Source of the DNA: Lepidurus packardi
Taxonomy: Eukaryota > Arthropoda > Branchiopoda > Notostraca > Triopsidae
Length of the DNA: 64,000 nucleotides
Reading direction: 5' to 3'
NCBI GenBank assembly: GCA_023053545.1
Contig: JAKZAN010000006.1
Coordinates: 9,766,351 to 9,830,350 of the forward strand
A program made the translations under genes and the position numbers. The notes beneath the pieces were generated by a model that was not told the DNA's origin, did no database searches, and was given only the letters and a program-made list of their open reading frames with translations. This document shows positions 16,701 to 51,948 of this stretch, one piece after another. The first letter of the stretch is position 1. The number at the start of each line of letters is the position of its first letter.

Positions 16701-18386
16701 CAAGATCAACTGATGAGGTAATGAGTAGTTTTACGCAACACGTAATTGCAGACGGTTGGCGAAGATTTGGTGCCAAATATCTGCACCGTCATCTCGTAGG
16801 TTTGTGGAGGAATACTGCTCCCAGGAGGCCGCCAGAAAAAGCGGAGAACATGTAGACCACGTGGGATGACTCCTACTTGGTGAAACATGGACTAAATGGC
16901 TACCGAGTACTCTCTAAAGCGCAACAGAACGCCGAGTAGGTTGTTTAACAAGCCGGCCCAGCCAATAGAGCATCATTCAGAGATACGCCATCCGTTTTAG
17001 CTGCTGTGTCAAACACCACCCTGACCACAGTATAAAGGTTTACACAGTATACTGGTAACTGGGTAACTGGTAACAGTATACTGGTAGGTAACTGGGGTAT
17101 CTTCGAATGTAAAGGGATTAAGACGATTTTCTCGGTCTCAAGAGGATGTGGGGGTAACAAGGCACATAGGAGGGATGGATTCACAGACTTGCCCATCCTA
17201 CCCCAGAAGTAGGCATTCCAAATCTACTACAAGAAGGGTTCGAAAAGAGAACAAAACATTCACAAAACGGGGGACTGGTGACCTTTCTCTCGAGGGAGTT
17301 TGGGGCTGACGTAAGATTCGACTAGCATTGCGCGATTTTGAAAGTTTTTCTCCAGGAAATGATTATGCTGGATCTTGGTATTAAAGTCTTACGGTAATAT
17401 CTTTCACTTCACATTGCTTGCTAATCCGCAAAGAAAGACAAGCACTTGCTACGTTCTACTGTTTTTAATTTCATATAAATAGCGTCGTCTCATCAACTCG
17501 TCAGCAATTGCTATTGCGCTTCCGTGCAGTTTGTTGCAAATTTCACAGAGCTCACTCGCAATTTCTTTCAAAGCAGATTTTTACCGTTTTCTTAACACGA
17601 CTCTCTTAACACGACGAGGTATTTTATAGTATATGGGGTTAAACCTGTATACTATAAAACACCTATGTATGGGTTGCAAAATAGACTGCCTCCTCGTGGT
17701 GCAACCTGGGTAACGCGAAATAGTCTATAATGTGTATACGTGTTGTGCTTTGACCTAGTTCATTCATCTTTTATTTTAAGCTTAAAGCTTTTATTTTAAG
17801 CTTCATAGTTTAAAGCAATAGATTTAAATTACGCGCTTTGTAAACCGTCGTGACCTTTTTTGAGCTGCACTGGGAGGTTTGCGAATGTACCCTTTCATTT
17901 TCTGGCCTTTTACCTGAATATTACTCTGGGGGCCGAGAAGGTCGTCAGAAAACCTTAACATTGGAAGATACCCCTGTTACCATACTGTGTAAAGCTTTAT
18001 ACTGTGACCCTGACTTTCCCTGGCTTGTTAGGGTTAGTCACCGCGTTGTGAGGAAGGTACCGGGTACGTGGGAAGTGCGTTCCCAAATCTGATGGGCTGA
18101 GTTTGCGTGCGTGGCTGTCTGCCATGTAGACGTCGATGGTCTTCAGAGATGGTGTTGCGAGGTCCGGATTCGAGTTCAGGTTTCTTTCGAGAGCGAAGAA
18201 TCGTTGCATAGACATGTTGCGGTTGTCACACAGGCTGACGGTTTGGGAAGACCATAGCATTCCGTCTTCATGCCGGTCACCAACGAGACGAACGGTGGTT
18301 TCTAATAATTTAACGCCAATGAGTCAACTTCTGGAACTATCTTGCTCGCTAGAGGTTGGATTCCGGGCGACTCCGTAGTCCAGAAC
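16701..18386 (-). pseudogene. BEL/Pao reverse transcriptase fragment split by an inverted-repeat element (unit 1)
   Basis: Read on the minus strand, 18386-18007 encodes the RT N-terminal region (LCDNRNMSMQRFFALERNL, ARKLSPSDLGTHFPRT, YLPHNAVTNPNKPGKVRV). The frame is cut by the element at 17026-18006 and resumes at 17025 with VVFDTAAKTDGVSLNDALL. It continues in broken frames through FHQVGVIPRGLHVLRFFW and VQIFGTKSSPTVCNY to the array border. These blocks match the conserved Pao RT order. Stops and frameshifts make it non-coding. Confidence 0.85.
17026..18006. mobile_element. Non-autonomous inverted-repeat DNA transposon (MITE-like), unit 1
   Basis: The ends are inverted copies starting CACAGTATAAAG. 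In the uninterrupted units, three mismatches occur over the first ~50 bp, and similarity fades over about 100 bp. The element is flanked by perfect 8-bp direct repeats ACCCTGAC at 17018-17025 and 18007-18014, a target duplication made within the BEL RT gene. An 8-bp duplication suggests hAT or P-type mobilisation. It has no transposase frame. Inside, a 12-bp-arm palindrome (TTTTATAGTATA) lies near 17622-17670. This copy has a 36-bp internal expansion of TACTGGTAACTGG-type sequence in its left arm (about 17047-17095). Confidence 0.85.
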
Positions 18387-18606
18387 GTTTTGACTGTCCC
18401 CTCAAGTCCCCAAGTTTGGACAAGTCCCCTCAAGCTCCAACCGAATGGAGTACACCTTCATCAACACGGGTTGCCAATAGTACTAAATGTATTCCCCTTA
18501 TCACTTGACGAAACATGAGTATGCACGTGGTAGTTTGAGTCGAGTCGTCTCGAGTCAACTCTTCCCACACTTTCCGCTCTATTGTGTCATGTCGAGTCTT
18601 TTATAG
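18387..18606. other. Non-coding flank 3' of the Gypsy insertion
   Basis: About 220 bp between the recognisable BEL RT N-terminus and the Gypsy LTR. It has CCCCTCAAG repeats near 18397-18430 and GAGTCGAGTC motifs near 18537-18560. It is presumably degenerate BEL protease-RT linker. The same stretch recurs before copies 2-5. Confidence 0.5.
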
Positions 18607-18855
18607 TGTAAGGACCTCTGTGCGTAGGCTAAGACTCTCTATTTGGCATTAACATTCAGTATATATACACACCAGGACAAAGGGTCAATCAGGAAATATA
18701 GGTTAAGGAAGAGGTCAACGTCGTGTACCAAGAAGCGGGTCAGTAGTCAGTTCCTAGTACAATTAGAGAGGTCACTTTTGGTCAAGTCTCAGGAGTCACC
18801 CAGGGCAAAGGAACACAATTGCATATGGTTCATTTCATTTCTACCACACTACACT
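18607..18855 (-). repeat. Gypsy copy 1, 3' LTR
   Basis: 249 bp. On the minus strand it starts AGTGTAG and ends TTACA. A TATATATA box at about 18659-18666 is the likely promoter core of the LTR. Confidence 0.9.
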
Positions 18856-18862
18856 CGCCCCC

Positions 18863-21800
18863 TTAACAACTTTTAGCGTCTTTTTCTCGCGTTTCGTGGC
18901 ATAAATCCAAGGGCTGTCCTGGTTCCACATATACCAGCCTTAATGGTGGCCGTCGAACTCGACAGCTCCTACGTGCAGGAATATTTTCGGTATCGGGACA
19001 AGTTGTTCCTAGCCCATTCTCATTCGGTAAAACATCCTCAGGGTCGTTTTCTGGAATGTGGGCTTCAGGTTCGTCATCCTTGCGTACAGTGTCATCTTCG
19101 CCATTGTTTTCAGAAATGTTTGTTTCAGGTTCGTCTTCATTCCGTACATTTTCATCTTCGCCATCGCTGTCCAAGACACACCAGTCATCATACAATTCCA
19201 GGAACTGTGGAGATGCAGGACGTTCTTGATTCACAGGGGTCACGCGTTCTGGCAAAATGGGCGTTTCTTCGGGCTCCTCGGCGTCGCGTGGCACTAGCAC
19301 TTCTTCGTGCTCGTCTTCCGTCGTACAAGGCTTGACATTATTAAAATGCACCACCTTGCGAGCACCAGTTACTTTGTTCTTTACCCTAAAGACTTCTTCG
19401 GATATTCTCTTGATGACGATAAACGGCCCAACCCACGGCCTATGAAACTTCGGGGATTTTCCTCTTTTGGGGACAGGAGCATGCACCCACACATGGTCAC
19501 CGACCCGTAAAGTTTTACCGGCAACATCACGGTCATAATACTGTTTTTGCCTGACTCTAACTGCAAGCAAACGTTGGTTGGCTTTCTCGTACACGTTTTT
19601 AAGATCCTGTTCTAAATTACTGGCATACTCGGAAGCCGAAGTCCCGGTTTTAACCACATTTCCCGCGTGAAACACTACATCGGCCGGTAAAAGGAGTTCG
19701 CGTCCCAAGTGAAGCTTTGAAGGGGTACAATCTGTCGACGCTTGAATACCAGACCGATACGCTAGCAAGACTTTGGGCAGCATGCTATCCCACGTATCCT
19801 CTCCTTGGTCTAGAAGCTTACTCAATCCGGCCAATATCGTCCGGTTCGCGCGCTCCACGAAACCATCACTTTGAGGATGGTACGGAGTAGTTCTGGTTTT
19901 CTGGATCTTCAAAATGTCGCATACTTCCTTAAAAACGTTTCCAACAAAATTCCTACCTTGGTCCGTGTGCAACTGTTCCGGTGCGCCCCATCGACATACA
20001 TACTCATTGAAGAATTTGTCGGCTATTACTGAGGCCTCTTGTGTGGGAATAGGGTAAGCTTCGAGCCATTTCGTAAACAAATCCCCCACCACCAAAACGT
20101 ATCGATTACCGCACACGGTTTCGGGCAGGGGACCCAAAATGTCCATAGCAACGATTTCGCCAGGACGCTTGGCATTCAAAGATCGCAACGGGGCGCGTCT
20201 CTTCTGTTGAGGCGGATTACTCTGTCCACAAGTAAAACATTTTTTGCACCAAGCCATAACGTCCTCTTGCATCTTAGGCCAGTAGAATCTTTGCCGCAAT
20301 TTTGCTAAAGTCCGCGCGACACCCATGTGTGCGGCCGTTTCCTCGTTGTGATAGGTTCTAAGAAGTGTCTCCACAACCTTCTTAGGCACCAAAGGGAGGA
20401 GGCGTTCCCCCTCTTCACTTGTCCATTTTCTGTACAGCGTTTCGTCTTGCACGCACAACTTACTTCTCTGGACCCAATAACTCCTTAATGTTGAATTTAA
20501 ACCTTGCGGCGATTTCGGAATGACGTTTGGTGTCTTCAACCAACTGGACACTACGTTGAGGTCTTCATCGTTCTTCTGATGAAAGGTTATCGACGTCTCC
20601 GTGGTCTCCACGGTACTCACAACCGGGTCAGCCAACAGGTTGGAGCAGGGCATATCAGGGACATCTCCATCTTCTTCTTCTTCCAGATCCTCGGACTCGT
20701 CGTCTTGAATTCCACATTGAGTACATGGACGTCTTGACAACGCGTCCGCATTACCATGTTTTCTTCCTGGACGATGATCTATTTCAAATTGGTACGCAGC
20801 CATCAGTTGGAGCCACCGCAACACTTGGCCGGAAGGATTTTTACACTTCTTCATCCATGCCACGGCACTGTTGTCGGTCCTAATCTTGAATGGCTTTCCC
20901 AAAAGGTAATGACTGAATTGTGTTAGCGCAAATTTAACGGCCAAAAGTTCTTTTCGTGTCACGCAGTACCTGGATTCCGCCCGAGACAACCCACGGCTTG
21001 CAAATGCCACAGGTCTTTCAACTCCATCAATAACTTGTGACAGAACAGCTCCCAAACCCACATTGCTTGCGTCGGAGTCCACCAGAAACGGTTTTGATAA
21101 ATCAGGGAAAGCCAGGATGGGTGTCGACGTAAGCGCAGCTTTTAAAGCCTGGAATGCTTCTTCACAAACAGTGGACCATTCAAACTTAACCGTCGGCTCT
21201 GACAATTTGTAAAGTGGCTTTGCGATGTTAGCAAAGTTTCGAACGAATCTTCTGTAGTACGACGCCAGTCCTAGGAATCGGGATACCTGATCCGCATTGA
21301 TCGGTCTTGGCCATTCTGCAATGGCCCCGGTCTTCTCGGGATCCGTTTGTATACCATCCTGACTAATTACATGTCCAAGGAAGGTAACATTGTCTCGAAA
21401 CAATTTGCATTTGCATCATCTTGCAAGCGTTGACAAACTTCTTCCAGTCTCGCTAAGTGCTCTTCAAATGTTCGGCTGAAGATTACAATATCATCTAAGT
21501 AGATCAGGCAGACGCTCCATTGCAAACCCCTTAGGACGAGTTCCATGAGCCTTTGGAAACTACTTGGCCCATTGCATAAGCCAAAAGGCATGACGTTGAA
21601 CTCGAACAAGCCCTGGGGCGTTTGGAGTGCCGTTTTTAGTCGATCTTCGGTTTCAACTTCTAATTGGTAATAACCGCTTATCAGGTCCAGCGTAGAAAAA
21701 TACTTTGCTCCCGCTAAAGCATCCAAAGTGTCGTCGATTCTGGGGAGAGGATACGCATCCTTGACTGTTACGTTATTCAGGCCCCGGTAGTCCACGCATA

Positions 21801-22911
21801 AGCGAAGAGTCCCGTCTTTCTTTTTCACCATGACTATGGGTGAACTCCAAGGGCTCGATGAAGGGGAAATGGCTCCTTGACCCAAGAGATCATGCACCAT
21901 CGTATCTAACTGCGGTTTCCAGTGCGCTGGGACTCTTCTGGGCTGTACCCGAACAGGGGGTTGTGTCCCCGTGTTAATGCGATGCTTGAAGTAGGTAGTT
22001 CTTCCCAAATCGCTCGAATGTAGCGACAAAATACTCTTGTGTCTTCTGAGGAAATTTTCCAACTGATGTTTCTGACTTACCGTTAGGGATTTAGATGGTT
22101 CTCCAAAAAGGGGAAGGTATGGGGCGTCAATTTCCTCGGTAGAATTAGGCTGTTTGTTGGTTGTAGTGCGCGATTCTGAAGTATGATCGATGCTTGTAGT
22201 TAATAGCTCACTCACTTCATCCCCCAATGGCGTAAATACTCCTACTCTGGTACCAGATTTAAGACGAACAGGCTTGTCAGTAACGTTCATAAGTCTTACA
22301 GGAACACGTCCGTTCCCAACAGTAACTAATGCCCGCGCAACAAATAACCCATCCGGGTCTATGTTGTTGGGCAATTTTTCTATCAGGCCTTGACCTGTGA
22401 CTGAACCTGGTATGCAAGTCATCACTAAAAGTTCATGTCGTGCTGGAATCACTGTTGTTTCCGCTACTTCGATGGCCACCTCTGGTGAAGCTTTTTCTTC
22501 CAAAACCACTTGTTCGCTTCCAAACCGCAGTACGTCGTCTTTAAAATCAATCGCCATTCCGAAGTATTTCAAAAAATCTCTGCCCAAAATGACTTCTTGG
22601 TTCATGTCATCGGTAACGTAGGCATTAAACGTAAATGTTCTCTCGTTTATCACAAACGTAACGACAGTGCAACCCAAAATGTTCATAACTTGGCATCCCG
22701 CCTTCGCCGTTCTGACCCGAATGACCACCGGCAGAATACACAAATCTTGGACAAGATAGGATTTAACTAATGTAATGTCTGATCCAGAATCCACAAGCAT
22801 AGGGACAACTGTTTTACCACAAAAACCTTTGACATAAGCGGCAATATTCACATGCGCAACGTCAAATTCCAAATCGGCCCCTTCATATCCGTGAACTGGA
22901 GTCGGAGCCAC
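18863..22911 (-). pseudogene. pol: Gypsy copy 1 Pol, broken in RT
   Basis: Two open blocks remain. 21367-22911 holds protease (MLVDSGSD) and RT up to the YLDD box. 18863-21403 holds the RT tail, RNase H, integrase and GPY/F domain. Between them a net 19-bp deletion (TTTGCATCATCTTG instead of the longer sequence in copies 3-5) shifts the frame at about 21415. The same deletion is in copy 2. A private G-to-A change at about 21638 replaces a Pro-type codon by Leu (EDRLKT). The protein domains match those described for copy 5. Confidence 0.9.
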
Positions 22912-22935
22912 GCTTCCAGTTAGTTGGAGTTTCCC
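22894..22935 (-). promoter_or_regulatory. Gag-pol -1 frameshift signal (copy 1)
   Basis: The slippery heptamer GGGAAAC lies at 22935-22929 in the correct register (caG GGA AAC in the gag frame). A 7-nt spacer follows, then a perfect 7-bp stem AACTGGA (22921-22915) / TCCAGTT (22900-22894) with a 14-nt loop. The gag stop falls at the spacer/stem border. The pol frame is open in -1 through this site. The same signal is at 29519-29525 (copy 2), 42095-42101 (copy 4) and 49739-49745 (copy 5), and is deleted in copy 3. Confidence 0.8.
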
Positions 22936-23771
22936 TGGTTCTGCATACTGCCACTGGCCTTCTTTGGTTTAGTGCAGGTTGCTCGAAAATGGCCAGGTTC
23001 TCCACAGTTAAAGCAGGTCCTCGGAGTGTTCCCCTTGTTGGCTGATCTACGCTGATTAAAATAATTAGTTTTCAGTTCTTCCATAATTTTCTCGAAAGTG
23101 CCAAATCGCTGCTCCATCATTTTCGCCATGTTGGCAAGCTTCTGGTCAACCGTACTTGACGCCATGGTTGCTACTTCAGCCTGTTCAGAAGACTCGAGGT
23201 CTGCTACCATCTTCACTTTACGAATTGCTTCTTGTTGGGCTCCTCTTTCGTATCCTCGGATCTTCTCTATAGCTGCATCCAAGGAAATATCTTTCATCCC
23301 ATTCAGCTGCATTCGCAGCTCTCGCGGCTCCGTTGCATCGATAAGACGGCTTACTAACATTCGTTCTTGACTCACTGCATCCAACGATGGAAAAGCCTTC
23401 TTCAGGGTGTAGCGAAGCTGACGCGCGAATTCGGTCACGGAGTCCTTCGTGCCTCTACTCATAGTTTCAAATTTTCGCTGATACGTTATCACGTCCGTGT
23501 CTCGGAACATATCACTTATGGCTGCCACAGCACTGTCGTACTTAACTTGTAAATCACCGTCTAAAAGAGAGTACATTCTTTCGGCGCGTCCTCTTAATGA
23601 CATTGCGAAATGTTCCACTTTCTGTGTTTCGTCCAAAACACTGAACTTAGCGTACCGCTCAAAGCGTCGGCACCACGCTTCCCACTCTTCTTCCGTGCCA
23701 TCGGAAAAAAACTCTGGTGCGAATTTGGGAGAGCGTTTGTCAACGAGTTGAGGGTCTACCGACTGCGCCAT
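22920..23771 (-). CDS. gag: Gypsy copy 1 Gag (283 aa)
   Basis: Gag is the structural protein that forms the cytoplasmic retrotransposon particle and binds element RNA. The ATG at 23771 follows the 5' LTR directly and overlaps the tRNA-Ser primer-binding site. The N-terminal two thirds is a retrotransposon-gag helical domain (EEWEAWCRRFERYAKF, VEHFAMSLRGRAERMY, TEFARQLRYTLKKAFP). The C-terminus has one CCHC zinc knuckle, CFNCGEPGHFRATC, at about residues 258-271. Four codons from the end sits the slippery heptamer GGGAAAC (22929-22935), and the TAA stop is at 22920-22922. The frame is fully open in this copy. Identity to the gag of copies 2 and 4 appears complete. Confidence 0.93.
   Translation of the reverse strand: MAQSVDPQLVDKRSPKFAPEFFSDGTEEEWEAWCRRFERYAKFSVLDETQKVEHFAMSLRGRAERMYSLLDGDLQVKYDSAVAAISDMFRDTDVITYQRKFETMSRGTKDSVTEFARQLRYTLKKAFPSLDAVSQERMLVSRLIDATEPRELRMQLNGMKDISLDAAIEKIRGYERGAQQEAIRKVKMVADLESSEQAEVATMASSTVDQKLANMAKMMEQRFGTFEKIMEELKTNYFNQRRSANKGNTPRTCFNCGEPGHFRATCTKPKKASGSMQNQGNSN
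23759..23770 (-). other. Primer-binding site, tRNA-Ser type (copy 1)
   Basis: TGGCGCAGTCGG lies one base after the LTR end (TTACA). Its complement is CCGACTGCGCCA, the expected 3' end of a eukaryotic tRNA-Ser. Its first two bases are the TG of the gag ATG. Confidence 0.75.
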
Positions 23772-24020
23772 TGTAACGACCTCTGGGCGTAGGCTAAGAC
23801 TCTCTATTTGGCATTAACATTCAGTATATATACACACCAGGACAAAGGGTCAATCAGGAAATATAGGTTAAGGAAGAGGTCAACGTCGTGTACCAAGAAG
23901 CGGGTCAGTAGTCAGTTCCTAGTACAATTAGAGAGGTCACTTTTGGTCAAGTCTCAGGAGTCACCCAGGGCAAAGGAACACAATTGCATATGGTTCATTT
24001 CATTTCTACCACACTACACT
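23772..24020 (-). repeat. Gypsy copy 1, 5' LTR
   Basis: 249 bp. Differs from the 3' LTR at two sites close to its inner end (GTAACG/GTAAGG and GGGCG/GTGCG). Confidence 0.9.
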
Positions 24021-24109
24021 AGCAAATCAACGTTTATATAGCAAAGTCAGTCGTTCATAGCATGTCAAATTTAGAATCACAGTATGGAATATTACAGAGA
24101 GTGTCAGAT
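24021..24109. other. Short AT-rich flank 5' of the Gypsy insertion (unit 1)
   Basis: 89 bp between the Gypsy 5' LTR and the BEL protease remnant. No feature was recognised; it is repeated in all units. Confidence 0.5.
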
Positions 24110-24357
24110 TCAAGTGAAACAGATTAGTACTGCGCGAGGCCCTCTTACTCCAAGAGACGGTTTATTGATATCGTCGTAGTCATGGGCTTCGGATATGTCC
24201 TCACCAATTTGGACGGTCACTTCTCCAGGATCTGCTTCGTCTAACGGAACATCGCTCAGGTGTGGCCACGCTTGGCGCAAATACGGTAAGTTCCGAGTGC
24301 GACATGGAGCTACCAAATTCGGTATCGCTGTGGCTTCTTTGGCTTCGAAACATTTTT
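24110..24357 (-). pseudogene. BEL/Pao protease-region fragment (unit 1)
   Basis: Minus-strand frame with FEAKEATAIPNLV, RNLPYLRQAWPHLSDVPLD and VQIGEDISEAHDYDD, the conserved Pao block after the aspartic protease. The frame ends soon after RGPRAVL. Copies recur in each unit. Confidence 0.8.
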
Positions 24358-24361
24358 CAAA

Positions 24362-26010
24362 CAAGATCAACTGATGAGCTAATGAGTAGTTTACGCAACA
24401 CGTAATTGCAGACGGTTGGCGAAGATTTGGTGCCAAATATCTGCACCGTCATCTCGTAGGTTTGTGGAGGAATACTGCTCCCAGGAGGCCGCCAGAAAAA
24501 GCGGAGAACATGTAGACCACGTGGGATGACTCCTACTTGGTGAAACATGGACTAAATGGCTACCGAGTACTCTCTAAAGCGCAACAGAACGCCGAGTAGG
24601 TTGTTAAACAAGCCGGCCCAGCCATTAGAGCATCATTCAGAGATACGCCATCCGTTTTAGCTGCTGTGTCAAACACCACCCTGACCACAGTATAAAGGTT
24701 TACACAGTATGGTAACTGGGGTATCTTCGAATGTAAAGGGATTAAGACGATTTTCTCGGTCTCAAGAGGATGTGGGGGTAACAAGGCACATAGGAGGGAT
24801 GGATTCACAGACTTGCCCATCCTACCCCAGAAGTAGGCATTCCAAATCTACTACAAGAAGGGTTCGAAAAGAGAACAAAACATTCACAAAACGGGGGACT
24901 GGTGACCTTTCTCTCGAGGGAGTTTGGGGCTGACGTAAGATTCGACTAGCATTGCGCGATTTTGAAAGTTTTTCTCCAGGAAATGATTATGCTGGATCTT
25001 GGTATTAAAGTCTTACGGTAATATCTTTCACTTCACATTGCTTGCTAATCCGCAAAGAAAGACAAGCACTTGCTACGTTCTACTGTTTTTAATTTCATAT
25101 AAATAGCGTCGTCTCATCAACTCGTCAGCAATTGCTATTGCGCTTCCGTGCAGTTTGTTGCAAATTTCACAGAGCTCACTCGCAATTTCTTTCAAAGCAG
25201 ATTTTTACCGTTTTCTTAACACGACTCTCTTAACACGACGAGGTATTTTATAGTATATGGGGTTAAACCTGTATACTATAAAACACCTATGTATGGGTTG
25301 CAAAATAGACTGCCTCCTCGTGGTGCAACCTGGGTAACGCGAAATAGTCTATAATGTGTATACGTGTTGTGCTTTGACCTAGTTCATTCATCTTTTATTT
25401 TAAGCTTAAAGCTTTTATTTTAAGCTTCATAGTTTAAAGCAATAGATTTAAATTACGCGCTTTGTAAACCGTCGTGACCTTTTTTGAGCTGCACTGGGAG
25501 GTTTGCGAATGTACCCTTTCATTTTCTGGCCTTTTACCTGAATATTACTCTGGGGGCCGAGAAGGTCGTCAGAAAACCTTAACATTGGAAGATACCCCTG
25601 TTACCATACTGTGTAAAGCTTTATACTGTGACCCTGACTTTCCCTGGCTTGTTAGGGTTAGTCACCGCGTTGTGAGGAAGGTACCAGGTACGTGGGAAGT
25701 GCGTTCCCAAATCTGATGGGCTGAGTTTGCGTGCGTGGCTGTCTGCCATGTAGACGTCGATGGTCTTCAGAGATGGTGTTGCGAGGTCCGGATTCGAGTT
25801 CAGGTTTCTTTCGAGAGCGAAGAATCGTTGCATAGACATGTTGCGGTTGTCACACAGGCTGACGGTTTGGGAAGACCATAGCATTCCGTCTTCATGCCGG
25901 TCACCAACGAGACGAACGGTGGTTTCTAATAATTTAACGCCAATGAGTCAACTTCTGGAACTATCTTGCTCGCTAGAGGTTGGATTCCGGGCGACTCCGT
26001 AGTCCAGAAC
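24362..26010 (-). pseudogene. BEL/Pao RT fragment (unit 2)
   Basis: Copy of the 16701-18386 fragment, split by the inverted-repeat element at 24686-25630. It lacks one T in the GTAGTTTACG run, like unit 3. Confidence 0.85.
24686..25630. mobile_element. Inverted-repeat DNA transposon, unit 2 (945 bp)
   Basis: Same element without the left-arm expansion. The ACCCTGAC target duplication is at 24678-24685 and 25631-25638. Confidence 0.87.
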
Positions 26011-26230
26011 GTTTTGACTGTCCCCTCAAGTCCCCAAGTTTGGACAAGTCCCCTCAAGCTCCAACCGAATGGAGTACACCTTCATCAACACGGGTTGCCA
26101 ATAGTACTAAATGTATTCCCCTTATCACTTGACGAAACATGAGTATGCACGTGGTAGTTTGAGTCGAGTCGTCTCGAGTCAACTCTTCCCACACTTTCCG
26201 CTCTATTGTGTCATGTCGAGTCTTTTATAG

Positions 26231-26479
26231 TGTAAGGACCTCTGTGCGTAGGCTAAGACTCTCTATTTGGCATTAACATTCAGTATATATACACACCAGG
26301 ACAAAGGGTCAATCAGGAAATATAGGTTAAGGAAGAGGTCAACGTCGTGTACCAAGAAGCGGGTCAGTAGTCAGTTCCTAGTACAATTAGAGAGGTCACT
26401 TTTGGTCAAGTCTCAGGAGTCACCCAGGGCAAAGGAACACAATTGCATATGGTTCATTTCATTTCTACCACACTACACT
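26231..26479 (-). repeat. Gypsy copy 2, 3' LTR
   Basis: 249 bp, same sequence as the copy 1 3' LTR by eye. Confidence 0.9.
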
Positions 26480-26486
26480 CGCCCCC

Positions 26487-29400: not shown

Positions 29401-29501
29401 GTTTTACCACAAAAACCTTTGACATAAGCGGCAATATTCACATGCGCAACGTCAAATTCCAAATCGGCCCCTTCATATCCGTGAACTGGAGTCGGAGCCA
29501 C
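26487..29501 (-). pseudogene. pol: Gypsy copy 2 Pol, two deletions
   Basis: Open blocks: 27957-29501 (protease and RT to YLDD), 27274-27993 (RT tail and RNase H, ending ..GIQDDESED) and 26487-27347 (integrase tail with GPY/F). The net 19-bp RT deletion and the 1034-bp integrase deletion each break the frame. The second removes the HHCC zinc finger and the DDE catalytic core. Confidence 0.9.
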
Positions 29502-29509
29502 GCTTCCAG

Positions 29510-30361: not shown

Positions 30362-30610
30362 TGTAACGACCTCTGGGCGTAGGCTAAGACTCTCTATTTG
30401 GCATTAACATTCAGTATATATACACACCAGGACAAAGGGTCAATCAGGAAATATAGGTTAAGGAAGAGGTCAACGTCGTGTACCAAGAAGCGGGTCAGTA
30501 GTCAGTTCCTAGTACAATTAGAGAGGTCACTTTTGGTCAAGTCTCAGGAGTCACCCAGGGCAAAGGAACACAATTGCATATGGTTCATTTCATTTCTACC
30601 ACACTACACT
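30362..30610 (-). repeat. Gypsy copy 2, 5' LTR
   Basis: 249 bp, same GGGCG variant as the copy 1 5' LTR. Confidence 0.9.
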
Positions 30611-30699
30611 AGCAAATCAACGTTTATATAGCAAAGTCAGTCGTTCATAGCATGTCAAATTTAGAATCACAGTATGGAATATTACAGAGAGTGTCAGAT

Positions 30700-30947: not shown

Positions 30948-30951
30948 CAAA

Positions 30952-33069: not shown

Positions 33070-33076
33070 CGCCCCC

Positions 33077-36913: not shown

Positions 36914-36917
36914 CAAA

Positions 36918-38567: not shown

Positions 38568-38787
38568 GTTTTGACTGTCCCCTCAAGTCCCCAAGTTTGG
38601 ACAAGTCCCCTCAAGCTCCAACCGAATGGAGTACACCTTCATCAACACGGGTTGCCAATAGTACTAAATGTATTCCCCTTATCACTTGACGAAACATGAG
38701 TATGCACGTGGTAGTTTGAGTCGAGTCGTCTCGAGTCAACTCTTCCCACACTTTCCGCTCTATTGTGTCATGTCGAGTCTTTTATAG

Positions 38788-39036
38788 TGTAAGGACCTCT
38801 GTGCGTAGGCTAAGACTCTCTATTTGGCATTAACATTCAGTATATATACACACCAGGACAAAGGGTCAATCAGGAAATATAGGTTAAGGAAGAGGTCAAC
38901 GTCGTGTACCAAGAAGCGGGTCAGTAGTCAGTTCCTAGTACAATTAGAGAGGTCACTTTTGGTCAAGTCTCAGGAGTCACCCAGGGCAAAGGAACACAAT
39001 TGCATATGGTTCATTTCATTTCTACCACACTACACT
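38788..39036 (-). repeat. Gypsy copy 4, 3' LTR
   Basis: 249 bp, GTGCG variant. Confidence 0.9.
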
Positions 39037-39043
39037 CGCCCCC

Positions 39044-42000: not shown

Positions 42001-42077
42001 TAAGCGGCAATATTCACATGCGCAACGTCAAATTCCAAATCGGCCCCTTCATATCCGTGAACTGGAGTCGGAGCCAC
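39044..42077 (-). pseudogene. pol: Gypsy copy 4 Pol lacking integrase core
   Basis: 39831-42077 is one open frame of 748 codons with protease, complete RT (YLDD) and RNase H. It runs out of frame at the 1034-bp integrase deletion (about 39834), identical to that of copy 2. The integrase tail remains at 39044-39904 in another frame. Enzymatically complete up to RNase H, it could reverse transcribe but not integrate; this is inferred from domain content only. Confidence 0.9.
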
Positions 42078-42085
42078 GCTTCCAG

Positions 42086-42937
42086 TTAGTTGGAGTTTCC
42101 CTGGTTCTGCATACTGCCACTGGCCTTCTTTGGTTTAGTGCAGGTTGCTCGAAAATGGCCAGGTTCTCCACAGTTAAAGCAGGTCCTCGGAGTGTTCCCC
42201 TTGTTGGCTGATCTACGCTGATTAAAATAATTAGTTTTCAGTTCTTCCATAATTTTCTCGAAAGTGCCAAATCGCTGCTCCATCATTTTCGCCATGTTGG
42301 CAAGCTTCTGGTCAACCGTACTTGACGCCATGGTTGCTACTTCAGCCTGTTCAGAAGACTCGAGGTCTGCTACCATCTTCACTTTACGAATTGCTTCTTG
42401 TTGGGCTCCTCTTTCGTATCCTCGGATCTTCTCTATAGCTGCATCCAAGGAAATATCTTTCATCCCATTCAGCTGCATTCGCAGCTCTCGCGGCTCCGTT
42501 GCATCGATAAGACGGCTTACTAACATTCGTTCTTGACTCACTGCATCCAACGATGGAAAAGCCTTCTTCAGGGTGTAGCGAAGCTGACGCGCGAATTCGG
42601 TCACGGAGTCCTTCGTGCCTCTACTCATAGTTTCAAATTTTCGCTGATACGTTATCACGTCCGTGTCTCGGAACATATCACTTATGGCTGCCACAGCACT
42701 GTCGTACTTAACTTGTAAATCACCGTCTAAAAGAGAGTACATTCTTTCGGCGCGTCCTCTTAATGACATTGCGAAATGTTCCACTTTCTGTGTTTCGTCC
42801 AAAACACTGAACTTAGCGTACCGCTCAAAGCGTCGGCACCACGCTTCCCACTCTTCTTCCGTGCCATCGGAAAAAAACTCTGGTGCGAATTTGGGAGAGC
42901 GTTTGTCAACGAGTTGAGGGTCTACCGACTGCGCCAT
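42086..42937 (-). CDS. gag: Gypsy copy 4 Gag (283 aa)
   Basis: Intact gag frame as in copies 1 and 2, with the CCHC knuckle and the GGGAAAC heptamer at 42095-42101. In this copy the -1 frame opens directly into protease, RT and RNase H. Confidence 0.92.
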   Translation of the reverse strand: MAQSVDPQLVDKRSPKFAPEFFSDGTEEEWEAWCRRFERYAKFSVLDETQKVEHFAMSLRGRAERMYSLLDGDLQVKYDSAVAAISDMFRDTDVITYQRKFETMSRGTKDSVTEFARQLRYTLKKAFPSLDAVSQERMLVSRLIDATEPRELRMQLNGMKDISLDAAIEKIRGYERGAQQEAIRKVKMVADLESSEQAEVATMASSTVDQKLANMAKMMEQRFGTFEKIMEELKTNYFNQRRSANKGNTPRTCFNCGEPGHFRATCTKPKKASGSMQNQGNSN

Positions 42938-43186
42938 TGTAACGACCTCTGGGCGTAGGCTAAGACTCTCTATTTGGCATTAACATTCAGTATATATACA
43001 CACCAGGACAAAGGGTCAATCAGGAAATATAGGTTAAGGAAGAGGTCAACGTCGTGTACCAAGAAGCGGGTCAGTAGTCAGTTCCTAGTACAATTAGAGA
43101 GGTCACTTTTGGTCAAGTCTCAGGAGTCACCCAGGGCAAAGGAACACAATTGCATATGGTTCATTTCATTTCTACCACACTACACT
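42938..43186 (-). repeat. Gypsy copy 4, 5' LTR
   Basis: 249 bp, GGGCG variant. Confidence 0.9.
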
Positions 43187-43275
43187 AGCAAATCAACGTT
43201 TATATAGCAAAGTCAGTCGTTCATAGCATGTCAAATTTAGAATCACAGTATGGAATATTACAGAGAGTGTCAGAT

Positions 43276-43523
43276 TCAAGTGAAACAGATTAGTACTGCG
43301 CGAGGCCCTCTTACTCCAAGAGACGGTTTATTGATATCGTCGTAGTCATGGGCTTCGGATATGTCCTCACCAATTTGGACGGTCACTTCTCCAGGATCTG
43401 CTTCGTCTAACGGAACATCGCTCAGGTGTGGCCACGCTTGGCGCAAATACGGTAAGTTCCGAGTGCGACATGGAGCTACCAAATTCGGTATCGCTGTGGC
43501 TTCTTTGGCTTCGAAACATTTTT
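43276..43523 (-). pseudogene. BEL/Pao protease-region fragment (unit 4)
   Basis: Copy of the 24110-24357 fragment. Confidence 0.8.
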
Positions 43524-43527
43524 CAAA

Positions 43528-45177
43528 CAAGATCAACTGATGAGCTAATGAGTAGTTTTACGCAACACGTAATTGCAGACGGTTGGCGAAGATTTGGTGC
43601 CAAATATCTGCACCGTCATCTCGTAGGTTTGTGGAGGAATACTGCTCCCAGGAGGCCGCCAGAAAAAGCGGAGAACATGTAGACCACGTGGGATGACTCC
43701 TACTTGGTGAAACATGGACTAAATGGCTACCGAGTACTCTCTAAAGCGCAACAGAACGCCGAGTAGGTTGTTAAACAAGCCGGCCCAGCCATTAGAGCAT
43801 CATTCAGAGATACGCCATCCGTTTTAGCTGCTGTGCCAAACACCACCCTGACCACAGTATAAAGGTTTACACAGTATGGTAACTGGGGTATCTTCGAATG
43901 TAAAGGGATTAAGACGATTTTCTCGGTCTCAAGAGGATGTGGGGGTAACAAGGCACATAGGAGGGATGGATTCACAGACTTGCCCATCCTACCCCAGAAG
44001 TAGGCATTCCAAATCTACTACAAGAAGGGTTCGAAAAGAGAACAAAACATTCACAAAACGGGGGACTTGTGACCTTTCTCTCGAGGGAGTTTGGGGCTGA
44101 CGTAAGATTCGACTAGCATTGCGCGATTTTGAAAGTTTTTCTCCCGGAAATGATTATGCTGGATCTTGGTATTAAAGTCTTACGGTAATATCTTTCACTT
44201 CACATTGCTTGCTAATCCGCAAAGAAAGACAAGCACTTGCTACGTTCTACTGTTTTTAATTTCATATAAATAGCGTCGTCTCATCAACTCGTCAGCAATT
44301 GCTATTGCGCTTCCGTGCAGTTTGTTGCAAATTTCACAGAGCTCACTCGCAATTTCTTTCAAAGCAGATTTTTACCGTTTTCTTAACACGACTCTCTTAA
44401 CACGACGAGGTATTTTATAGTATATGGGGTTAAACCTGTATACTATAAAACACCTATGTATGGGTTGCAAAATAGACTGCCTCCTCGTGGTGCAACCTGG
44501 GTAACGCGAAATAGTCTATAATGTGTATACGTGTTGTGCTTTGACCTAGTTCATTCATCTTTTATTTTAAGCTTAAAGCTTTTATTTTAAGCTTCATAGT
44601 TTAAAGCAATAGATTTAAATTACGCGCTTTGTAAACCGTCGTGACCTTTTTTGAGCTGCACTGGGAGGTTTGCGAATGTACCCTTTCATTTTCTGGCCTT
44701 TTACCTGAATATTACTCTGGGGGCCGAGAAGGTCGTCAGAAAACCTTAACATTGGAAGATACCCCTGTTACCATACTGTGTAAAGCTTTATACTGTGACC
44801 CTGACTTTCCCTGGCTTGTTAGGGTTAGTGACCGCGTTGTGAGGAAGGTACCAGGTACGTGGGAAGTGCGTTCCCAAATCTGATGGGCTGAGTTTGCGTG
44901 CGTGGCTGTCTGCCATGTAGACGTCGATGGTCTTCAGAGATGGTGTTGCGAGGTCCGGATTCGAGTTCAGGTTTCTTTCGAGAGCGAAGAATCGTTGCAT
45001 AGACATGTTGCGGTTGTCACACAGGCTGACGGTTTGGGAAGACCATAGCATTCCGTCTTCATGCCGGTCACCAACGAGACGAACGGTGGTTTCTAATAAT
45101 TTAACGCCAATGAGTCAACTTCTGGAACTATCTTGCTCGCTAGAGGTTGGATTCCGGGCGACTCCGTAGTCCAGAAC
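43528..45177 (-). pseudogene. BEL/Pao RT fragment (unit 5)
   Basis: Copy of the same fragment, split at 43853-44797. Private T-to-C change just before the element (CTGTGCCAAACACC). Confidence 0.85.
43853..44797. mobile_element. Inverted-repeat DNA transposon, unit 5 (945 bp)
   Basis: Same element. Target duplication at 43845-43852 and 44798-44805. Confidence 0.87.
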
Positions 45178-45397
45178 GTTTTGACTGTCCCCTCAAGTCC
45201 CCAAGTTTGGACAAGTCCCCTCAAGCTCCAACCGAATGGAGTACACCTTCATCAACACGGGTTGCCAATAGTACTAAATGTATTCCCCTTATCACTTGAC
45301 GAAACATGAGTATGCACGTGGTAGTTTGAGTCGAGTCGTCTCGAGTCAACTCTTCCCACACTTTCCGCTCTATTGTGTCATGTCGAGTCTTTTATAG

Positions 45398-45646
45398 TGT
45401 AAGGACCTCTGTGCGTAGGCTAAGACTCTCTATTTGGCATTAACATTCAGTATATATACACACCAGGACAAAGGGTCAATCAGGAAATATAGGTTAAGGA
45501 AGAGGTCAACGTCGTGTACCAAGAAGCGGGTCAGTAGTCAGTTCCTAGTACAATTAGAGAGGTCACTTTTGGTCAAGTCTCAGGAGTCACCCAGGGCAAA
45601 GGAACACAATTGCATATGGTTCATTTCATTTCTACCACACTACACT
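45398..45646 (-). repeat. Gypsy copy 5, 3' LTR
   Basis: 249 bp, GTGCG variant. Confidence 0.9.
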
Positions 45647-45653
45647 CGCCCCC

Positions 45654-48600
45654 TTAACAACTTTTAGCGTCTTTTTCTCGCGTTTCGTGGCATAAATCCA
45701 AGGGCTGTCCTGGTTCCACATATACCAGCCTTAATGGTGGCCGTCGAACTCGACAGCTCCTACGTGCAGGAATATTTTCGGTATCGGGACAAGTTGTTCC
45801 TAGCCCATTCTCATTCGGTAAAACATCCTCAGGGTCGTTTTCTGGAATGTGGGCTTCAGGTTCGTCATCCTTGCGTACAGTGTCATCTTCGCCATTGTTT
45901 TCAGAAATGTTTGTTTCAGGTTCGTCTTCATTCCGTACATTTTCATCTTCGCCATCGCTGTCCAAGACACACCAGTCATCATACAATTCCAGGAACTGTG
46001 GAGATGCAGGACGTTCTTGATTCACAGGGGTCACGCGTTCTGGCAAAATGGGCGTTTCTTCGGGCTCCTCGGCGTCGCGTGGCACTAGCACTTCTTCGTG
46101 CTCGTCTTCCGTCGTACAAGGCTTGACATTATTAAAATGCACCACCTTGCGAGCACCAGTTACTTTGTTCTTTACCCTAAAGACTTCTTCGGATATTCTC
46201 TTGATGACGATAAACGGCCCAACCCACGGCCTATGAAACTTCGGGGATTTTCCTCTTTTGGGGACAGGAGCATGCACCCACACATGGTCACCGACCCGTA
46301 AAGTTTTACCGGCAACATCACGGTCATAATACTGTTTTTGCCTGACTCTAACTGCAAGCAAACGTTGGTTGGCTTTCTCGTACACGTTTTTAAGATCCTG
46401 TTCTAAATTACTGGCATACTCGGAAGCCGAAGTCCCGGTTTTAACCACATTTCCCGCGTGAAACACTACATCGGCCGGTAAAAGGAGTTCGCGTCCCAAG
46501 TGAAGCTTTGAAGGGGTACAATCTGTCGACGCTTGAATACCAGACCGATACGCTAGCAAGACTTTGGGCAGCATGCTATCCCACGTATCCTCTCCTTGGT
46601 CTAGAAGCTTACTCAATCCGGCCAATATCGTCCGGTTCGCGCGCTCCACGAAACCATCACTTTGAGGATGGTACGGAGTAGTTCTGGTTTTCTGGATCTT
46701 CAAAATGTCGCATACTTCCTTAAAAACGTTTCCAACAAAATTCCTACCTTGGTCCGTGTGCAACTGTTCCGGTGCGCCCCATCGACATACATACTCATTG
46801 AAGAATTTGTCGGCTATTACTGAGGCCTCTTGTGTGGGAATAGGGTAAGCTTCGAGCCATTTCGTAAACAAATCCCCCACCACCAAAACGTATCGATTAC
46901 CGCACACGGTTTCGGGCAGGGGACCCAAAATGTCCATAGCAACGATTTCGCCAGGACGCTTGGCATTCAAAGATCGCAACGGGGCGCGTCTCTTCTGTTG
47001 AGGCGGATTACTCTGTCCACAAGTAAAACATTTTTTGCACCAAGCCATAACGTCCTCTTGCATCTTAGGCCAGTAGAATCTTTGCCGCAATTTTGCTAAA
47101 GTCCGCGCGACACCCATGTGTGCGGCCGTTTCCTCGTTGTGATAGGTTCTAAGAAGTGTCTCCACAACCTTCTTAGGCACCAAAGGGAGGAGGCGTTCCC
47201 CCTCTTCACTTGTCCATTTTCTGTACAGCGTTTCGTCTTGCACGCACAACTTACTTCTCTGGACCCAATAACTCCTTAATGTTGAATTTAAACCTTGCGG
47301 CGATTTCGGAATGACGTTTGGTGTCTTCAACCAACTGGACACTACGTTGAGGTCTTCATCGTTCTTCTGATGAAAGGTTATCGACGTCTCCGTGGTCTCC
47401 ACGGTACTCACAACCGGGTCAGCCAACAGGTTGGAGCAGGGCATATCAGGGACATCTCCATCTTCTTCTTCTTCCAGATCCTCGGACTCGTCGTCTTGAA
47501 TTCCACATTGAGTACATGGACGTCTTGACAACGCGTCCGCATTACCATGTTTTCTTCCTGGACGATGATCTATTTCAAATTGGTACGCAGCCATCAGTTG
47601 GAGCCACCGCAACACTTGGCCGGAAGGATTTTTACACTTCTTCATCCATGCCACGGCACTGTTGTCGGTCCTAATCTTGAATGGCTTTCCCAAAAGGTAA
47701 TGACTGAATTGTGTTAGCGCAAATTTAACGGCCAAAAGTTCTTTTCGTGTCACGCAGTACCTGGATTCCGCCCGAGACAACCCACGGCTTGCAAATGCCA
47801 CAGGTCTTTCAACTCCATCAATAACTTGTGACAGAACAGCTCCCAAACCCACATTGCTTGCGTCGGAGTCCACCAGAAACGGTTTTGATAAATCAGGGAA
47901 AGCCAGGATGGGTGTCGACGTAAGCGCAGCTTTTAAAGCCTGGAATGCTTCTTCACAAACAGTGGACCATTCAAACTTAACCGTCGGCTCTGACAATTTG
48001 TAAAGTGGCTTTGCGATGTTAGCAAAGTTTCGAACGAATCTTCTGTAGTACGACGCCAGTCCTAGGAATCGGGATACCTGATCCGCATTGATCGGTCTTG
48101 GCCATTCTGCAATGGCCCCGGTCTTCTCGGGATCCGTTTGTATACCATCCTGACTAACTACATGTCCAAGGAAGGTAACATTGTCTCGAAACAATTTGCA
48201 TTTGCTCGGTTTTATTTTCAAATTAGCATCTTGCAAGCGTTGACAAACTTCTTCCAGTCTCGCTAAGTGCTCTTCAAATGTTCGGCTGAAGATTACAATA
48301 TCATCTAAGTAGATCAGGCAGACGCTCCATTGCAAACCCCTTAGGACGAGTTCCATGAGCCTTTGGAAACTACTTGGCCCATTGCATAAGCCAAAAGGCA
48401 TGACGTTGAACTCGAACAAGCCCTGGGGCGTTTGGAGTGCCGTTTTTGGTCGATCTTCGGTTTCAACTTCTAATTGGTAATAACCGCTTATCAGGTCCAG
48501 CGTAGAAAAATACTTTGCTCCCGCTAAAGCATCCAAAGTGTCGTCGATTCTGGGGAGAGGATACGCATCCTTGACTGTTACGTTATTCAGGCCCCGGTAG

Positions 48601-49721
48601 TCCACGCATAAGCGAAGAGTCCCGTCTTTCTTTTTCACCATGACTATGGGTGAACTCCAAGGGCTCGATGAAGGGGAAATGGCTCCTTGACCCAAGAGAT
48701 CATGCACCATCGTATCTAACTGCGGTTTCCAGTGCGCTGGGACTCTTCTGGGCTGTACCCGAACAGGGGGTTGTGTCCCCGTGTTAATGCGATGCTTGAA
48801 GTAGGTAGTTCTTCCCAAATCGCTCGAATGTAGCGACAAAATACTCTTGTGTCTTCTGAGGAAATTTTCCAACTGATGTTTCTGACTTACCGTTAGGGAT
48901 TTAGATGGTTCTCCAAAAAGGGGAAGGTATGGGGCGTCAATTTCCTCGGTAGAATTAGGCTGTTTGTTGGTTGTAGTGCGCGATTCTGAAGTATGATCGA
49001 TGCTTGTAGTTAATAGCTCACTCACTTCATCCCCCAATGGCGTAAATACTCCTACTCTGGTACCAGATTTAAGACGAACAGGCTTGTCAGTAACGTTCAT
49101 AAGTCTTACAGGAACACGTCCGTTCCCAACAGTAACTAATGCCCGCGCAACAAATAACCCATCCGGGTCTATGTTGTTGGGCAATTTTTCTATCAGGCCT
49201 TGACCTGTGACTGAACCTGGTATGCAAGTCATCACTAAAAGTTCATGTCGTGCTGGAATCACTGTTGTTTCCGCTACTTCGATGGCCACCTCTGGTGAAG
49301 CTTTTTCTTCCAAAACCACTTGTTCGCTTCCAAACCGCAGTACGTCGTCTTTAAAATCAATCGCCATTCCGAAGTATTTCAAAAAATCTCTGCCCAAAAT
49401 GACTTCTTGGTTCATGTCATCGGTAACGTAGGCATTAAACGTAAATGTTCTCTCGTTTATCACAAACGTAACGACAGTGCAACCCAAAATGTTCATAACT
49501 TGGCATCCCGCCTTCGCCGTTCTGACCCGAATGACCACCGGCAGAATACACAAATCTTGGACAAGATAGGATTTAACTAATGTAATGTCTGATCCAGAAT
49601 CCACAAGCATAGGGACAACTGTTTTACCACAAAAACCTTTGACATAAGCGGCAATATTCACATGCGCAACGTCAAATTCCAAATCGGCCCCTTCATATCC
49701 GTGAACTGGAGTCGGAGCCAC
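45654..49721 (-). CDS. pol: Gypsy copy 5 Pol (protease-RT-RNase H-integrase), full length
   Basis: One open frame of 1355 codons encodes the enzymes for polyprotein cleavage, reverse transcription and integration. Domains in order: aspartic protease with LVDSGSD at residues 39-45; RT with LDLISGYYQ and YLDD at about 471; RNase H with FLVDSDASNVGLGAV and TRKELLAVKF; the integrase HHCC finger (HMGVARTLAKLRQRFYWP, CKKCFTC); the DDE core (AMDILGP, HTDQGRNFVG, SDGFVERANR); and a GPY/F domain (FHRPWVGPFIV). The acidic tail ends at a TAA overlapping the purine tract. The nominal first codon is GTG, and the frame is open upstream through the -1 frameshift site, so Pol is probably made as Gag-Pol. There is no chromodomain and no env. 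It is the only complete pol of the five. Confidence 0.93.
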   Translation of the reverse strand: MAPTPVHGYEGADLEFDVAHVNIAAYVKGFCGKTVVPMLVDSGSDITLVKSYLVQDLCILPVVIRVRTAKAGCQVMNILGCTVVTFVINERTFTFNAYVTDDMNQEVILGRDFLKYFGMAIDFKDDVLRFGSEQVVLEEKASPEVAIEVAETTVIPARHELLVMTCIPGSVTGQGLIEKLPNNIDPDGLFVARALVTVGNGRVPVRLMNVTDKPVRLKSGTRVGVFTPLGDEVSELLTTSIDHTSESRTTTNKQPNSTEEIDAPYLPLFGEPSKSLTVSQKHQLENFLRRHKSILSLHSSDLGRTTYFKHRINTGTQPPVRVQPRRVPAHWKPQLDTMVHDLLGQGAISPSSSPWSSPIVMVKKKDGTLRLCVDYRGLNNVTVKDAYPLPRIDDTLDALAGAKYFSTLDLISGYYQLEVETEDRPKTALQTPQGLFEFNVMPFGLCNGPSSFQRLMELVLRGLQWSVCLIYLDDIVIFSRTFEEHLARLEEVCQRLQDANLKIKPSKCKLFRDNVTFLGHVVSQDGIQTDPEKTGAIAEWPRPINADQVSRFLGLASYYRRFVRNFANIAKPLYKLSEPTVKFEWSTVCEEAFQALKAALTSTPILAFPDLSKPFLVDSDASNVGLGAVLSQVIDGVERPVAFASRGLSRAESRYCVTRKELLAVKFALTQFSHYLLGKPFKIRTDNSAVAWMKKCKNPSGQVLRWLQLMAAYQFEIDHRPGRKHGNADALSRRPCTQCGIQDDESEDLEEEEDGDVPDMPCSNLLADPVVSTVETTETSITFHQKNDEDLNVVSSWLKTPNVIPKSPQGLNSTLRSYWVQRSKLCVQDETLYRKWTSEEGERLLPLVPKKVVETLLRTYHNEETAAHMGVARTLAKLRQRFYWPKMQEDVMAWCKKCFTCGQSNPPQQKRRAPLRSLNAKRPGEIVAMDILGPLPETVCGNRYVLVVGDLFTKWLEAYPIPTQEASVIADKFFNEYVCRWGAPEQLHTDQGRNFVGNVFKEVCDILKIQKTRTTPYHPQSDGFVERANRTILAGLSKLLDQGEDTWDSMLPKVLLAYRSGIQASTDCTPSKLHLGRELLLPADVVFHAGNVVKTGTSASEYASNLEQDLKNVYEKANQRLLAVRVRQKQYYDRDVAGKTLRVGDHVWVHAPVPKRGKSPKFHRPWVGPFIVIKRISEEVFRVKNKVTGARKVVHFNNVKPCTTEDEHEEVLVPRDAEEPEETPILPERVTPVNQERPASPQFLELYDDWCVLDSDGEDENVRNEDEPETNISENNGEDDTVRKDDEPEAHIPENDPEDVLPNENGLGTTCPDTENIPARRSCRVRRPPLRLVYVEPGQPLDLCHETREKDAKSC

Positions 49722-49729
49722 GCTTCCAG

Positions 49730-50568
49730 TTAGTTGGAGTTTCCCTGGTTCTGCATACTGCCACTGGCCTTCTTTGGTTTAGTGCAGGTTGCTCGAAAAT
49801 GGCCAGGTTCTCCACAGTTAAAGCAGGTCCTCGGAGTGTTCCCCTTGTTGGCTGATCTACGCTGATTAAAATAATTAGTTTTCAGTTCTTCCATAATTTT
49901 CTCGAAAGTGCCAAATCGCTGCTCCATCATTTTCGCCATGTTGGCAAGCTTCTGGTCAACCGTACTTGACGCCATGGTTGCTACTTCAGCCTGTTCAGAA
50001 GACTCGAGGTCTGCTACCATCTTCACTTTACGAATTGCTTCTTGTTGGGCTCCTCTTTCGTATCCTCGGATCTTCTCTATAGCTGCATCCAAGGAAATAT
50101 CTTTCATCCCATTCAGCTGCATTCGCAGCTCTCGCGGCTCCGTTGCATCGATAAGACGGCTTACTAACATTCGTTCTTGACTCACTGCATCCAACGATGG
50201 AAAAGCCTTCTTCAGGGTGTAGCGAAGCTGACGCGCGAATTCGGTCACGGAGTCCTTCGTGCCTCTACTCATAGTTTCAAATTTTCGCTGATACGTTATC
50301 ACGTCCGTGTCTCGGAACATATCACTTATGGCTGCCACAGCACTGTCGTACTTAACTTGTAAATCACCGTCTAAAAGAGAGTACATTCTTTCGGCGCGTC
50401 CTCTTAATGACATTGCGAAATGTTCCACTTTCTGTGTTTCGTCCAAAACACTGAACTTAGCGTACCGCTCAAAGCGTCGGCACCACGCTTCCCACTCTTC
50501 TTCCGTGCCATCGGAAAGAATTTGGGAGAGCGTTTGTCAACGAGTTGAGGGTCTACCGACTGCGCCAT
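49730..50568 (-). pseudogene. gag: Gypsy copy 5 Gag, frameshifted near the start
   Basis: The ATG at 50568 and the first ~16 codons are as in copy 1. A private 13-bp deletion at about 50516 then shifts the frame. The rest of gag (open from at least 50446 to 49730) is unchanged, including the CCHC knuckle and frameshift heptamer (49739-49745). No full-length Gag can be made unless an internal start is used. Confidence 0.9.
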
Positions 50569-50817
50569 TGTAACGACCTCTGTGCGTAGGCTAAGACTCG
50601 CTATTTGGCATTAACATTCAGTATATATACACACCAGGACAAAGGGTCAATCAGGAAATATAGGTTAAGGAAGAGGTCAACGTCGTGTACCAAGAAGCGG
50701 GTCAGTAGTCAGTTCCTAGTACAATTAGAGAGGTCACTTTTGGTCAAGTCTCAGGAGTCACCCAGGGCAAAGGAACACAATTGCATATGGTTCATTTCAT
50801 TTCTACCACACTACACT
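50569..50817 (-). repeat. Gypsy copy 5, 5' LTR
   Basis: 249 bp. Unlike the other 5' LTRs it has GTGCG and a private CTCGC. Confidence 0.9.
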
Positions 50818-50906
50818 AGCAAATCAACGTTTATATAGCAAAGTCAGTCGTTCATAGCATGTCACATTTAGAATCACAGTATGGAATATTACAGAGAGTG
50901 TCAGAT

Positions 50907-51330
50907 TCAAGTGAAACAGATTAGTACTGCGCGAGGCCCTCTTACTCCAAGAGACGGTTTATTGATATCGTCGTAGTCATGGGCTTCGGATATGTCCTCA
51001 CCAATTTGGACGGTCACTTCTCCAGGATCTGCTTCGTCTAACGGAACATCGCTCAGGTGTGGCCACGCTTGGCGCAAATACGGTAAGTTCCGAGTGCGAC
51101 ATGGAGGTACCAAATTCGGTATCGCTGTGGCTTCTTTGGCTTCGAAACATTTTTGCCATCGATTGACGCTATGTGAAAGTTGACTATTCGGGTCAGAGTC
51201 TTCGGTTCGCGACCTTTGTAGGTGCTGAACTCAGTTTCCTCCATAGGACCCAAACCCCTCCATTTTTCAAACCCCTCCATAGGACCCAAACCCCTCCATA
51301 CTGAACTCAGTTTCCTCCATAGGACTCAAA
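50907..51330 (-). pseudogene. BEL/Pao protease-region fragment (unit 5) and native right flank
   Basis: 50907-51154 repeats the protease-side fragment. From 51155 the sequence no longer matches the other units and continues the BEL frame upstream (GREPKTLTRIVNFHIASIDGK). This is therefore the original, unduplicated right border of the amplified segment. It carries private changes (TGTCACATTT, ATGGAGGTACC). Confidence 0.8.
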
Positions 51331-51931: not shown

Positions 51932-51948
51932 ACTGGGAATAGGGTTCC

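Follow-up and report, generated by a model that had tools for sequence, protein, structure and literature searches.

A five-unit tandem array of nested transposable elements, probably grown in place within a dead BEL/Pao element

The window analysed here, a 64-kb stretch of DNA, contains a tandem array of nested transposable elements with host-gene fragments on both sides, and its gene set looks animal-like. The features of the window are collected in Table 1. A hAT transposon that looks recent lies at 51940-56316, 786 bp beyond the array on its right side; it has 17-bp TIRs (94% complementary), a perfect 8-bp target duplication and two long open frames of 174 and 682 amino acids, and it matches the hAT dimerisation profile, with a BED zinc finger narrowly missing the cut-off. 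TTAGG-like repeats form a short run at 10603-10649, 6 kb to the left of the array. Rfam and tRNA searches of the window (the latter by ARAGORN with the bacterial code) returned no matches.

The array runs from 16701 to 51154 and is filled by five head-to-tail units in a single orientation, as determined by self-comparison of the window and alignment of the units. An initial annotation of this DNA had described a five-unit block, and its outer edges were confirmed to the base; its length arithmetic, in which unit 1 exceeds unit 2 by 1034 + 36 + 1 bp, also agreed with the unit alignment. All 39 repeat pairs of at least 150 bp that were detected in the 64-kb window fall inside the array, and none of them has a copy in the flanks. 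Substitutions occur in 20 of the 7680 columns of the five-unit alignment. All ten pairs of units are 99.75-99.98% identical where aligned (1 to 15 substitutions in each pair, or 0.02-0.25%), so chance likeness of the units is not in question; 15 of 7608 aligned bases distinguish unit 1 from unit 5, and 1 of 4932 distinguishes unit 3 from unit 4. The same alignment shows that 19 bp are absent from units 1 and 2, and that unit 5 lacks both 13 bp and the 4-bp junction filler described below. The additional 36 bp of unit 1 are more likely to be an insertion in that unit than a loss from the others, because the opposite TIR arm agrees with the short form.

Table 1. Positions of the array, its nested elements and the neighbouring features within the 64-kb window.
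Feature	Position	Strand	Remarks
Left-side host-gene fragments			ligand-gated channel, INTS2, histidine phosphatase
Left-side GTPase-like frame	ends 2283 bp from left edge		Roc match 24.6 bits, below cut-off of 27
Left-flank BEL/Pao element, two pieces	15708..16097	-	Pao peptidase PF05380, E 2.2e-8 and 1.4e-9
Hairpin at left edge	16687..16717	.	8 + 5 bp stem, one bulge, 4-base loop at 16701-16704
Unit 1	16701..24361	+	7661 bp; taken as founder type A; 36-bp insertion near end of TIR element; 19-bp deletion in pol
Unit 2	24362..30951	+	6590 bp; hybrid; lacks 1034 bp of pol; 19-bp deletion in pol
Unit 3	30952..36917	+	5966 bp; hybrid; lacks 1677 bp of gag-pol
Unit 4	36918..43527	+	6610 bp; hybrid, pattern as in unit 3; lacks same 1034 bp as unit 2
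Unit 5	43528..51154	+	7627 bp; taken as founder type B; 13-bp deletion near gag start
TIR element, unit 1 copy	17026..18006	.	outer arms 25 nt, 96% complementary; present in every unit
Target duplication of TIR element, unit 1	17018-17025 and 18007-18014		8 bp
Gypsy (Ty3-like) LTR retrotransposon, unit 1 copy	18607..24018	-	assigned from LTRs and profile matches
Gypsy LTRs, unit 1	18607-18853 and 23772-24018		247 bp each, 2 differences
Gypsy gag frame, unit 1	22920-23813	-	pol to its left
Gypsy pol frame, unit 5	45654-49778	-	open over 1374 aa
Inner junction 12-mer, four identical copies	24351-24362, 30941-30952, 36907-36918, 43517-43528	+	
Only other window copy of junction 12-mer	51261..51272	+	right flank
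Minisatellite	51238..51335	+	19-bp period; right flank; holds junction 12-mer
Open frame across right array edge	51056..51325	-	90 aa; no Pfam match
Right-side host gene			HSP70-family

Two elements are nested at the same sites and in the same orientation in all five units. For the TIR element, the 8-mer of the target duplication occurs ten times in the window when both strands are counted, twice per unit and nowhere else. Its unit 1 copy also contains, at 17617-17664, a 24-nt inverted repeat (83% complementary, without a spacer) that includes no variable column of the unit alignment.

The second nested element is classed as Gypsy (Ty3-like) on the predicted gag, protease, reverse transcriptase, RNase H and integrase pieces found between its LTRs in unit 1; in the profile search, zf-CCHC, RT_RNaseH, Integrase_p58_C and RVT_1 exceeded their curated cut-offs, and gag-asp_proteas (27.0 bits, cut-off 28.2) and rve (22.9 bits, cut-off 32.6) fell short of theirs. 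The LTR ends were set by the general rule for LTR termini, and both LTRs recur in all units. Three differences between the LTRs were recorded: one is present in all five units, the second lies in the 5' LTR of units 1-4, and the third in the 5' LTR of unit 5 only. The difference common to the five units indicates that the Gypsy element had been inserted, and was already diverging, before the duplication. Its genes are intact in none of the units, being interrupted by the 19-bp deletion (units 1 and 2), the 1034-bp deletion (units 2 and 4), the 1677-bp deletion (unit 3) or the 13-bp deletion (unit 5). The bases immediately outside the LTRs (18603-18606 and 24019-24022) agree at three of four positions, an imperfect target duplication despite the near-identical LTRs. 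Around the element, about 230 bp (within 18401-18606 and 24019-24180) are not BEL-like and are bounded by a 7-bp direct repeat and by 8-bp inverted matches, which are short enough to have arisen by chance; the Gypsy element may sit within a fourth, small nested insert.

Three scans of viral_contigs, made for sequences related to the RNase H piece of the Gypsy element and to two of the pieces read as BEL, gave 11, 10 and 23 pattern matches and no confirmed relative. In genome_contigs, one scan yielded 114 pattern matches, with a single confirmed relative (E 2e-7, 39% identity) on a bacterial MAG contig. This was set aside as a chance match: the common stretch is short, and the last 1.6 kb of that locus, translated in its three forward frames, showed no retroelement frame.

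The array itself is likely to lie inside one decayed BEL/Pao element, for which the support is best on the left. Eleven pieces of the window were read as BEL, and PF05380 scored above its cut-off in two of them, both in the left flank; the profile search gave no PF05380 match in the BEL-read pieces inside the unit or in the right flank. In those two regions we take the motifs to be those of a BEL/Pao protease and reverse transcriptase, and the 90-residue frame at the right edge is presumably a continuation of the BEL protease region, again judged from its motif. Open frames span the left edge (172 amino acids) as well as the right, and a frame of 96 amino acids likewise spans an inner junction, so edge-crossing frames alone lend weak support to one continuous element. 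The proposal in the initial annotation that the array sits inside one dead element is therefore largely upheld by the Pao peptidase of the left flank and, more weakly, by these frames. Its further proposal, that the same BEL fragments are present in every unit, holds as far as their recurrence is concerned, the BEL identity having a profile match in the left flank only. An 11-bp repeat array of 5.4 copies occurs at 16288-16348, within the left-flank BEL frame.

The four inner junctions are identical, each consisting of the right end of a unit, four filler bases and the left end of the next unit. With the sharing of nested sites, this bears out the earlier claim that the nested cluster was amplified as one segment and not by repeated insertion. 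The junction 12-mer has one further exact copy in the window, which starts 107 bp past the right edge of the array on the same strand, where 0.05 copies would be expected by chance; when one mismatch is allowed, the 12-mer is found at the same five places, with 1.08 expected. One founding duplication is likely, since the inner junctions are identical and the 12-mer occurs only once elsewhere in the window. Matches to lesser parts of the junction, the longest of them 11-mers, are also found in the flanks (an 11-mer at 56864 and, over the filler and the left end, a 10-mer at 12879), as chance allows. Because of these matches the copy in the right flank is a likely, rather than a certain, source of the 4-bp filler. 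Two routes fit the data: template switching at the common 7-base stretch, or a breakpoint originally placed at that copy and followed by a later loss of the DNA between. A count of the 12-mer in random windows (23 of 20000) was not used as a control, as it can only recount the known site.

At the left edge, the array starts on the first base of the hairpin loop. The hairpin has a z-score of -4.46, and none of 200 shuffles gave one as good; it is one of 37 comparable hairpin clusters in the approximately 37 kb outside units 2-5. An edge would fall in a loop by chance in about 0.5% of cases per breakpoint, or 1% for two, on a post hoc calculation that allows five bases per apex. The coincidence of edge and hairpin loop is suggestive.

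The internal differences between units were examined by painting, with units 1 and 5 treated as founders A and B, respectively; 18 differences (substitutions and indels, with the filler excluded) separate the two. Outside the painting stand the variants at which units 1 and 5 agree, namely columns 29, 2502, 4371 and 4691, two substitutions within the stretch of 1034 bp, and the deletions of 1034 and 1677 bp. Unit 2 is of type B up to alignment column 386 (except at site 309) and of type A from column 577 (except at sites 1362 and 4957), and units 3 and 4 are of type B to column 4957 (except at site 309) and of type A from column 7027. All three inner units are therefore B on the left and A on the right, with one switch each, apart from sites 309, 1362 and 4957. 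The state at each of these exceptions is seen in a single founder unit and is explained by a private change at a late stage. When misaligned direct repeats exchange in a way that adds copies, the resulting hybrids must have this B-left/A-right polarity. The array shows the shared non-homologous junction (four of four) and the hybrids of one polarity (three of three) of an array grown by unequal crossing-over, although units 3 and 4 have one common history and are not independent.

The sites private to one founder lie towards the outer ends of the array (permutation p = 0.0017 for the 18 sites; exact p = 0.0076, or 5788 of 756756, for the 15 substitutions; p = 0.0004 under a null of uniform positions), although these values flatter the model, the sites being few and linked and the founders and tests having been chosen after the table was seen. 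Two variants cut across the A/B pattern. The 1034-bp pol deletion, which has 1 bp of microhomology at its ends, is found in units 2 and 4 only; this conflicts with single switches and calls for an extra conversion or double exchange, for which a single event between columns 2502 and 4667 would be enough. Also in conflict is the 1-base difference at column 29 (units 2 and 3), which sits in a short T run. A view of the array as a repeated dimer (long-short-long-short-long) was rejected, as it explains the 1034-bp deletion and not the ordered A/B sites.

The best explanation for these observations, to which a probability of roughly 0.77 is given, is that part of a dead BEL/Pao element underwent tandem segmental duplication in place and that the array then grew through misaligned exchange. 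This probability takes account of the shorter junction matches elsewhere and the lack of a BEL profile match inside the unit. The starting point would have been a dead BEL/Pao element that already held the TIR element and a fairly young Gypsy element. Judging from the junction, the duplication would have joined a right breakpoint in or near the minisatellite to a left breakpoint at the hairpin loop; the four filler bases match the right flank, which fits either microhomology-guided template switching or end joining. The pattern of sites suggests that founder copies A (unit 1) and B (unit 5) then diverged by about 0.2%, and strongly suggests that the three inner units, all of B-left/A-right type, arose afterwards by misaligned exchange. 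Deletions in single units complete the history, the 1034-bp deletion having been either passed between two inner units or inherited across the pattern; the alignment fixes this last step in all but its direction. The array most likely behaves passively, as a repeat whose number of copies varies.

The length of the array, which exceeds that of many long reads, and the near identity of its units raise the question of an assembly artefact, in which one to three units, many more than five, or two haplotypes strung together were rendered by the assembler as five. Such an artefact is unlikely: each unit has its own combination of indels and substitutions, units 2-4 are ordered mosaics, the window contains no N, the flanks hold no copy among the repeat pairs of at least 150 bp, and the inner junction requires at least two real units.

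The in-place duplication is compatible with an additional possibility, that a genuine satellite is in formation here, with more arrays elsewhere in the genome. A review, in the passages available from it, puts forward nested TE remnants as the source of composite satellites, the 'TE graveyard' hypothesis (PMC12628747), and to that extent lends this possibility support. It is nonetheless quite unlikely, as there are five units only, at this one locus, and host-gene fragments flank the array on both sides; in the sequence of the window, these fragments argue against a heterochromatic location. Five units close to genes are not in themselves a satellite, and the suggestion in the initial annotation of a satellite being born goes beyond what this locus shows. 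A related pair of ideas is offered jointly as a doubtful proposal: that the array is an early intermediate on the way from nested dead transposons to composite satellites, with its founders still at both ends, and that both founding breakpoints may lie at unstable motifs (the hairpin loop on the left, the minisatellite on the right), the dead element having supplied the fragile site.

Growth by successive duplications and mutation alone, without hybrid units, was also considered. One unrooted tree, ((u1,u2),(u3,u4),u5), does accommodate every site class other than the 1034-bp deletion and column 29. Under such growth, however, the founder-private sites should be scattered, and they cluster towards the outer ends (p 0.0004 to 0.0076); in addition, the 1034-bp deletion, with its 1 bp of microhomology, would then need two identical events. 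Tree-like growth is therefore very unlikely. Rolling-circle or extrachromosomal-circle amplification with reinsertion, which also predicts identical inner junctions, is highly improbable, because one element appears to run on into both flanks, so that reinsertion must have hit the source site, and because such amplification would not be expected to leave founder types in order at the two ends.

Macrosatellites have units of several kilobases. An array grown by in-place duplication and misaligned exchange, as preferred here, resembles macrosatellites and other large tandem arrays in having near-identical multi-kilobase units for which copy-number variation is expected, and differs from those described in the available parts of two reports in its few units and lack of a known function (PMC3081327, PMC2588610). 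Tandem arrays of LTR elements have been described in plants, for example for Cassandra (PMC7215508). As portrayed in excerpts of that source, Cassandra arrays likewise consist of head-to-tail DNA that includes LTR elements, with unequal exchange proposed for changes in copy number, but their LTRs alternate with internal domains and neighbours share LTRs (PMC7215508). In the present array, by contrast, the unit ends lie outside the LTR element and two LTRs are kept per unit, and an origin by LTR-LTR recombination was rejected on these two grounds. In composite satellites, too, a segment assembled from several TE remnants has been amplified in tandem; their monomers, in the review as excerpted, contain short TE-like segments, whereas here a unit of 6 to 7.7 kb contains long recognisable elements in five copies (PMC12628747). 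Satellite arrays and adjacent TEs are also the subject of a paper on rye (PMC4857426). A literature search of open-licence papers, at the level of listings, found no animal array of nested BEL and Gypsy elements with mapped founders.

The array therefore belongs to a known kind, the TE-derived tandem segmental array, and its value lies in an unusually clear record of its origin. The growth process itself is ordinary, here caught early and clearly. With five units at about 99.8% identity, the locus is also a useful test case for assembly. In our view, the origins of TE-derived tandem arrays have mostly been inferred from old, homogenised arrays. In this case, one sequence shows which copies are the likely founders, where the founding junction lies, what its template probably was and which polarity the later exchanges took, so that the step from duplication to array is directly testable in other individuals.
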